33,277 nt of DNA, taken from NCBI GenBank assembly GCA_036480375.1, contig JAZGGI010000009.1, positions 1 to 33,277 on the forward strand, in the 5' to 3' direction. How positions within the stretch are numbered: position 1 is the first letter of the stretch; every line of letters begins with the position of its first letter. The notes under the pieces were generated by a model. The model was not told the DNA's origin, searched no databases, and saw only the letters and a program-made list of their open reading frames with translations. Positions 6,569 through 7,773 of the stretch are shown piece by piece. Source of the DNA: Candidatus Zixiibacteriota bacterium (lineage in GTDB: Bacteria > Zixibacteria > MSB-5A5 > GN15 > JAAZOE01). Made by a program: the position numbers and the translations under genes.

Positions 6569-7567
6569 TTAAATAACAAGGAATTCCGGCGAGCGAGGAA
6601 TTTCTACGGCCGCCTTAATACTTTCCCAGCGGTTTTGTTTGGTGGTAATAATCGACTGTACGACTCGTTCAAAACCGATGCCGCACCCGGATGATTGACC
6701 CTCCGATTGCTTGAGGACCTCGAAATACCAACTAAATTGAGCCGGGTCGACTCCGCGGGCGACGAGGTGATCATACATATAAGATTCTTCAAACTGTTTT
6801 TTACATTTTTCCGAATCGCCTTCCCGAACGGCCCCGCCGACCGATTCGCCAGCGTGAGGCAGGAGAAGATCACAGCATAAAGTTTCACTGCCTTTCCTTT
6901 TCATTGAGAAGAATTTTATGACTCCTCCTTTTTTGGGTCTGGGTTCGGCCGGGTAATTGGTGACAAAGGTCGGCATTCCGGAAAGGATTTGGCATAATAA
7001 TTCTTCCTCTTCGCTGCCGAAATCATCACCGAATTGTATCTGGTGTCCTTTGGCCTGGAGCAGGCTGACCGCTTTTTCGTATTTGACGCGGTTGAAGGGC
7101 TGGTCGATATATTTTTTCAGAGTATTATTGCGATAGATTTTATGTCCTTCGGTATACATTGCTTTTATCAATGACTCGATATTATCCATTAAACCGTCGA
7201 GTTGGAAATCGCGGCTCTCAAATTCTATCAATGTAAATTCGCATAAGTGCCGTCCGGTTACTTTACGCTCCTGCCGGAAAGACGGCCCGATTGTGTAAAC
7301 GCGATTGTGCGCAACGGTGAAGGCTTCCAGGTAAAGCTGCCCGGTTTGCCGGAGAAACATTTCCACTTCATCGCCGCCTTCGTCAAACATCGCTACCGAC
7401 ATGGCGTTGGGGAACCATTCGCAGGAACCGGTCGCTCCGGTGATATGCGGAACCTGAACCTCCATAAAATCGTGTTTTACAAACCATTCGCGGGCGGTTC
7501 TTAAGAGTAGTGATCTCAATTTGCTGGTGACAGCAAAATTGCCCTGACATACTTCCAGATGACGCAT
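6569..7567 (-). CDS. AsnRS-like class II enzyme without anticodon-binding domain; likely asparagine synthetase (AS-AR type)
   Basis: A 332-residue class II aminoacyl-tRNA-synthetase catalytic core of the Asp/Asn type. Motif 1 lies around FMEVQVPHITGATGSCE (35-50), motif 2 is GPSFRQE...RHLCEF (95-111, Arg98 and Glu100), and motif 3 is GCGIGFERVV (294-303, Arg301). A true AsnRS or AspRS has about 100 extra N-terminal residues forming an OB-fold that reads the anticodon; this protein starts directly at the catalytic core. That architecture matches the archaeal asparagine synthetase related to AsnRS (AS-AR), which amidates aspartate without tRNA. The start ATG at 7567 has AGGAGGT six bases upstream. 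The frame stays open further upstream only because it runs through the leader hairpin. Asparagine synthesis is inferred from the missing domain; a tRNA-linked role remains possible. Confidence 0.8.
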   Translation of the reverse strand: MRHLEVCQGNFAVTSKLRSLLLRTAREWFVKHDFMEVQVPHITGATGSCEWFPNAMSVAMFDEGGDEVEMFLRQTGQLYLEAFTVAHNRVYTIGPSFRQERKVTGRHLCEFTLIEFESRDFQLDGLMDNIESLIKAMYTEGHKIYRNNTLKKYIDQPFNRVKYEKAVSLLQAKGHQIQFGDDFGSEEEELLCQILSGMPTFVTNYPAEPRPKKGGVIKFFSMKRKGSETLCCDLLLPHAGESVGGAVREGDSEKCKKQFEESYMYDHLVARGVDPAQFSWYFEVLKQSEGQSSGCGIGFERVVQSIITTKQNRWESIKAAVEIPRSPEFLVI

Positions 7568-7592: not shown

Positions 7593-7625
7593 AAAAAAAA
7601 GACCACCCAATAAAAATGGGTGGCC
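7593..7625 (-). promoter_or_regulatory. Transcription attenuator in the leader of the AsnRS-like gene
   Basis: On the minus strand a nine-pair stem (7617-7625 with 7601-7609, one G-U pair) and a 7-base loop are followed by eight U residues (7593-7600). The last U is only 25 bases before the start codon, and that gap is filled by the ribosome site. No promoter fits there, so every transcript of the gene must pass this terminator. A competing pairing of GTTGGC (7632-7637) with GGCCAC (7620-7625) could act as antiterminator. I found no T-box core sequence and no short leader peptide rich in Asn codons. Confidence 0.7.
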
Positions 7626-7773
7626 AATAAAGCCAACATATAACGGGAATACCGCTCCCGCTCCGGGATGGTTAGCATGCATTTTGCCAAACTCCCCGGG
7701 CTGATAGTATCTTTCCCGAACGCACTCGTAGCGCGATTTTGATTTTCGTTATGAACATGTCTCTAAAAAAGGG

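Follow-up and report, generated by a model that had tools for sequence, protein, structure and literature searches.

A conserved terminator and tandem leader ORFs suggest translation-coupled attenuation of an AsnRS-like gene in Zixibacteria

Our results suggest that the leader of an AsnRS-like gene in Zixibacteria is a translation-coupled transcription attenuator, similar to that of pyrBI but with tandem leader ORFs. We give this reading a probability of roughly 0.55. The leader lies in a stretch of 33,277 nucleotides from a Candidatus Zixiibacteriota bacterium (contig JAZGGI010000009.1), which we call the window; its features are collected in Table 1. Our comparison of orthologous leaders shows that the terminator, the position of the promoter, the positions of both leader ORFs and the fixed overlap between these ORFs are conserved beyond chance.

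In the model we favor, RNA polymerase would initiate about 200 nt upstream and, 25 nt short of the gene, reach an intrinsic terminator. Ribosomes would translate uORF1, finish 8 nt past the start codon of uORF2, and then either restart or load directly on uORF2. A uORF2 ribosome that is close behind the polymerase would cover the 5' arm of the terminator, so that no hairpin forms and the gene is transcribed. If close translation is missing, the hairpin would form and transcription would end. The signal would then be how tightly transcription and translation are coupled (ribosome supply, polymerase pausing or translation stress) and not one charged tRNA.

Table 1. Features of the AsnRS-like gene and its leader in the window.
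Feature	Position	Strand	Basis
Promoter	-35 TTGACT 7802-7797, 17-nt spacer, -10 TTAAAT 7779-7774	-	read from sequence
5' box TTTTTTAGAGAC, T-run then AGARAC, transcript start	7759..7770	-	by eye, conserved in nearly all leaders
uORF1, ATG + 27 codons + TAA, MFITKIKIALRVRSGKILSARGVWQNAC*	7672..7758	-	conserved stop position
uORF2, ATG at 7682, GGAG 9 nt upstream, 99 codons	7383..7682	-	conserved SD/start position, frame open through hairpin
Alternative hairpins over uORF2 ribosome site/start (CCGGGGAG...CATCCCGG, CGGGAGCGGTATTCCCG)	7649..7697	-	predicted folds only
Small hairpin, TGGCT 7635-7631 with GGCCA 7625-7621, candidate antiterminator	7621..7635	-	better than shuffles
Intrinsic terminator	stem 7625-7617 / 7609-7601, U-tract 7600-7593	-	sequence and conservation, 22/28 orthologous loci including L014, L015
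AsnRS-like gene, 332 aa, SD AGGAGGT just upstream	6569..7567	-	Pfam PF00152, E 1.7e-41

The gene product consists of an AsnRS-type class II synthetase catalytic domain and lacks the anticodon-binding domain, and its scores against the NCBIfam models for AsnRS, AspRS and asparagine synthetase A are all under the cut-off. Because the same genome also encodes a full AsnRS (C16) and AsnB (C24), we regard the gene as a paralogue. Its identity as an asparagine synthetase A (the archaeal AsnRS-like AS-AR) was rejected, since the profile is nearer to AsnRS (148.6 bits to 1x54 versus 40.2 bits to 1nnh) and the NCBIfam models are far below cut-off. Orthologues with 53–73% identity (own copy excluded) occur in 28 of the 132 genomes of the phylum, all metagenome-assembled. 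The family is patchy within the phylum, and a scan of genome contigs with exact short peptide patterns found it only in Zixibacteria or in records lacking a phylum name. No relative was found in viral contigs. The upstream neighbour gene varies between loci; hence the leader travels with the AsnRS-like gene.

In the minus strand of the window, positions 7625-7593 read GGCCACCCA-TTTTTAT-TGGGTGGTC-TTTTTTTT. The hairpin has nine pairs, six of them G-C, with a loop of 7, and the eight U of its tract are followed by 25 nt up to the ATG at 7567. The pair G7624-U7602 reads A-C on the plus strand and hence the full stem exists only in minus-strand RNA. The gap at 7592-7568 contains AGGAGGT and no promoter. 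The original prediction had described just this: the nine-pair stem with eight U 25 bases before the start codon, the G-U pair confined to minus-strand RNA, and a gap holding the ribosome site only. It had also proposed that the hairpin is an attenuator in the leader and that expression needs read-through. This agrees with a terminator between promoter and gene and no promoter room behind it. Judged from the sequence, no promoter fits between 7592 and 7568 that could provide a later transcription start, and orthologues do share the hairpin; these were the two points on which the prediction could have failed.

Within a single sequence, terminator-like matches are at chance level (4 found vs 4.2 expected), and the exact hairpin pattern has one occurrence in its own genome. 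It is the conservation among orthologous loci, not this count, that places the hairpin beyond chance. A GCC(A/G)(C/T)CC...GG(G/A)(T/C)GGC hairpin stands directly before the gene in 20 of the 28 loci, own included, starting 53–64 nt before the start codon. In none of these 20 leaders could a promoter fit behind it, and 18 have a good U-tract, which is degenerate in L021 and L023. L014 and L015 also have this hairpin, but about 390–440 nt upstream of the gene. It is absent from L033, L034, L036, L037 and L038, and the L017 leader is interrupted by a contig end. On the evidence of these sequences, the hairpin is a genuine, conserved attenuator.

Two observations concern the loci that deviate. The 390–440 nt between terminator and gene in L014 and L015 are filled by REP-like repeats (TCGCCCCTCGACTCCGCTCGGGGTGAC). 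Orthologues of family f16 carry a different terminator (TCCCCGACC..GGTCGGGGATTTTTTTT), at about -87 before the gene in L037, -53 in L038 and -226 in L036.

Transcription is predicted to start at about 7770-7764. Nearly all orthologous leaders have a TTGAC promoter 200–390 nt upstream of the gene, with a constant spacing between the -35 box and a TTTTAGARAC-like box downstream. Elsewhere in the window (6017-5989, minus strand), a perfect sigma-70 promoter (TTGACA, 17, TATAAT) lies upstream of an M23 peptidase gene at 5938-5039.

Between promoter and terminator, conservation resides in two small overlapping ORFs. We scanned for ORFs that begin at the transcript end or have an SD with at least 4 matches, in a set of 20 leaders from which L023 was dropped as a near-duplicate and to which L015 was added. 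We settled on the ORF criteria with group A already in view, and the controls (400 dinucleotide shuffles) were given equal freedom, with the window optimised as for the real leaders. As related genera do not provide independent leaders, we also used reduced sets. Of the 20 leaders, 14 have the uORF1 stop 32–46 nt ahead of the terminator, compared to a mean of 3.6 and a maximum of 7 in shuffles; in the reduced set (one group-A member, without L029) 10/15 do, with a null maximum of 5. An SD and start for uORF2 are found 44–59 nt before the terminator, a single 16-nt window, in 15 of the 20 leaders, with the frame open through the hairpin. Shuffles reach a mean of 3.7 and a maximum of 7 (reduced set 11/15 vs maximum 6), and natural sequence from the same loci a mean of 3.6 and a maximum of 9. 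By eye, the remaining five leaders have a uORF2 start codon near the expected place, with no SD of at least 4 nt in the tested window.

The two ORFs are also tied to each other. The uORF1 stop is exactly 8 nt downstream of the uORF2 start in 11 of the 15 leaders and in 7/11 of the reduced set, against a null maximum of 5 in both cases. When leaders are aligned on the uORF1 stop, 13/14 have T and G at -7 and -6, which is the uORF2 start codon. uORF1 is 17–39 codons long, exactly 28 in all five group-A leaders. Neither the uORF1 nor the uORF2 peptides are conserved, and uORF1 peptides are unrelated between leaders. Diverging peptides at constant ORF positions fit the idea that it is the passage of the ribosome, not the peptide, that matters. 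The case for the ORFs is thus one of positional statistics and not of codon-level conservation, and it is from these positions that we infer translation.

Could uORF2 be something other than a leader ORF? In the window it spans the terminator and overlaps the AsnRS-like gene out of frame, which is the usual arrangement. It is in frame in only two leaders with an SD start (L020 and L032), so we rejected the reading that the gene extends N-terminally across the hairpin. An in-frame ATG at -53 in L001 was also rejected as an extension start; its SD is 13 nt away and it differs from the conserved start. We also dropped the idea that a uORF2 stop is conserved where the gene begins (several leaders have ATGA there), as the position of this stop varies too much. 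That uORF2 of L015 is open for 437 nt, across the repeats inserted between its terminator and gene (P = 0.036, shuffles), is a point in favor of the coupling model.

Among 16 uORF1 sequences there is no notable amino-acid enrichment and no run of control codons, Asn or other. Asn is at expectation (z -0.4), by which an Asn-codon leader peptide was dismissed, and the original prediction had been right to see no Asn-rich peptide. The highest value belongs to Val (z 3.1), raised in part by the TG motif of the uORF2 start. The uORF1 bounds of L026 and L028 were off by one codon, which does not materially change the counts. One could argue that a leader in which neither codon counts nor motif searches yield a signal is just a constitutive leaky terminator that tunes expression. 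We consider this very improbable, as plain leakiness does not need a conserved two-ORF overlap at a fixed distance.

A more serious alternative is a stalling-type attenuator. As in leaders of the trp type or those induced by antibiotics, the position of the ribosome in uORF1, stalled or at the stop, would then select between the terminator and the small hairpin at 7635-7621. The near-constant uORF1 stop, 32–46 nt from the terminator, would suit such a mechanism, and so would alternative helices that overlap the end of uORF1 and the base of the terminator arm. The original prediction had placed a rival pairing at 7632-7637 with 7620-7625, and it exists as 7635-7631 with 7625-7621. This small overlapping hairpin surpasses its shuffled counterparts across the 20 leaders (Fisher p = 3e-6, related leaders not being fully independent); it is missing in L018, L019, L021 and L024. 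However, it is short and takes only 2–5 nt of the terminator 5' arm, uORF1 lacks notable amino-acid enrichment (the Asn and Val values given above), and the conserved start and frame of uORF2 are left unexplained. Stalling is hence a possibility that we take seriously, yet find unlikely. Predicted folds also bear on the coupling model we favor: wherever uORF2 has an SD (15 leaders), this SD is at least partly paired. Therefore, translation of uORF1 could open the uORF2 ribosome site.

The conserved terminator, the structured folds and the amino-acid related gene might also point to a riboswitch or T-box-like leader RNA that senses a metabolite or a tRNA. The original prediction, which had taken the lack of an Asn-rich peptide as a sign of a new sensor RNA, does not hold in this respect: no conserved aptamer-like motif or covarying core was found, and two overlapping ORFs are conserved instead. 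Rfam yielded no family match at the gathering threshold and no credible one at relaxed thresholds. For the T-box (RF00230) there was no match even below threshold, at E up to 10 in the window or 3 in 17 loci, which bears out the predicted lack of a T-box core. The best Rfam match, anti-hemB, was rejected, with 28 bits vs a gathering score of 49.5; it covers the terminator. At the cut end of the L019 stretch (1-64) there is a partial tRNA-Sec match of 33.8 bits, below the gathering score. A Gibbs motif search from the 5' box to the terminator found nothing clearly above shuffles, and neither the sequence nor the length of the middle region is conserved. In the consensus fold of four close group-A leaders, 2 of the 16 pairs are compensatory. 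The covariance model built from these four leaders (R1) finds L015 strongly (E 4e-14). Beyond its own members, it otherwise finds L014 in part, L020 at E 0.003 and other weak, end-driven matches. Hence, no conserved covarying aptamer was found by motif search, consensus fold or R1 searches, and we think a sensing RNA is highly unlikely.

R1 also bears on whether the leader is instead a small RNA in its own right, with a separate promoter and terminator, whose place before the gene is incidental. In the phylum, clear R1 matches occur once per genome, which speaks for such an RNA, and the distant terminators of L014 and L015 would fit as well. However, these matches always adjoin the AsnRS-like gene, with no unlinked copies. 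In the 20 leaders with the hairpin 53–64 nt before the start codon, the SD directly follows the U-tract, and the middle of the putative RNA is conserved neither in sequence nor in length. An independent small RNA is therefore quite improbable.

This brings us back to translation-coupled attenuation. Together, uORF1 and uORF2 would put a ribosome roughly 100–140 nt before the hairpin in most leaders. This suggests a relay, and therefore we favor translation-dependent antitermination. Some points argue against coupling, among them the positional nature of the ORF evidence and the five leaders whose uORF2 start codon lacks an SD of at least 4 nt. When a terminator lies within the first 100 bp of a coding region, it is poorly repressed unless pausing helps (PMC4824070), and the terminator here lies 44–57 nt into uORF2, which would be in this range of poor repression. 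No conserved pause sequence or tract was found between uORF2 start and terminator across leaders; the T-runs there are 3–4 long in most leaders, 8 in L002 and 1 in L035.

More tentatively, the leader might be a general coupling sensor. Tandem overlapping ORFs, whose peptides are free to vary, would hand over the ribosome from uORF1 to uORF2 so that it reaches the terminator together with the polymerase, and the AsnRS paralogue would respond to ribosome supply or translation stress, not to a metabolite or a charged tRNA. If the coupling model is true, then pyrBI-like attenuation extends to an uncultured phylum, and a relay of two ORFs could solve the escape of early-frame terminators from ribosome control. 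Control by translation would also hint that the AsnRS paralogue acts on the translation machinery. Our literature search found no paper tying Zixibacteria to such attenuation.

How does the leader compare to known systems? It shares with T-box leaders (RF00230) a length of about 200 nt and a terminator before an aminoacyl-tRNA-synthetase-like gene, but it has no T-box core, stem I specifier core or Rfam match. In trp-type leaders, a few tens of nucleotides separate the leader ORF stop from the terminator. The small uORF1 ends similarly (14/20 leaders, 32–46 nt), but here there are no control codons and a second ORF crosses the terminator. The mgtCBR leader of Salmonella has two short ORFs (mgtM and mgtP), a non-conserved mgtM peptide and control by transcription-translation coupling (PMC3641672). 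Two leader ORFs and a non-conserved peptide are also seen in Zixibacteria. In contrast, mgtCBR lacks intrinsic-terminator-like hairpins (PMC3641672), whereas the Zixibacteria leader has a terminator, and mgtP is rich in Pro codons, a run absent from the Zixibacteria leader ORFs. In the pyrBI attenuator of Escherichia coli (pyrL leader), the terminator lies within the leader ORF and tight coupling keeps the hairpin from forming (PMC4824070, PMC5021804). The single leader ORF of pyrBI is accompanied by UTP-sensitive U-rich pausing, whereas the Zixibacteria leader has two overlapping ORFs before a different gene and no pause tract was found. Common to both systems is an intrinsic terminator that lies shortly before the gene and within a leader ORF that looks translated: in 15/20 leaders an SD-bearing uORF2 is open through the hairpin.
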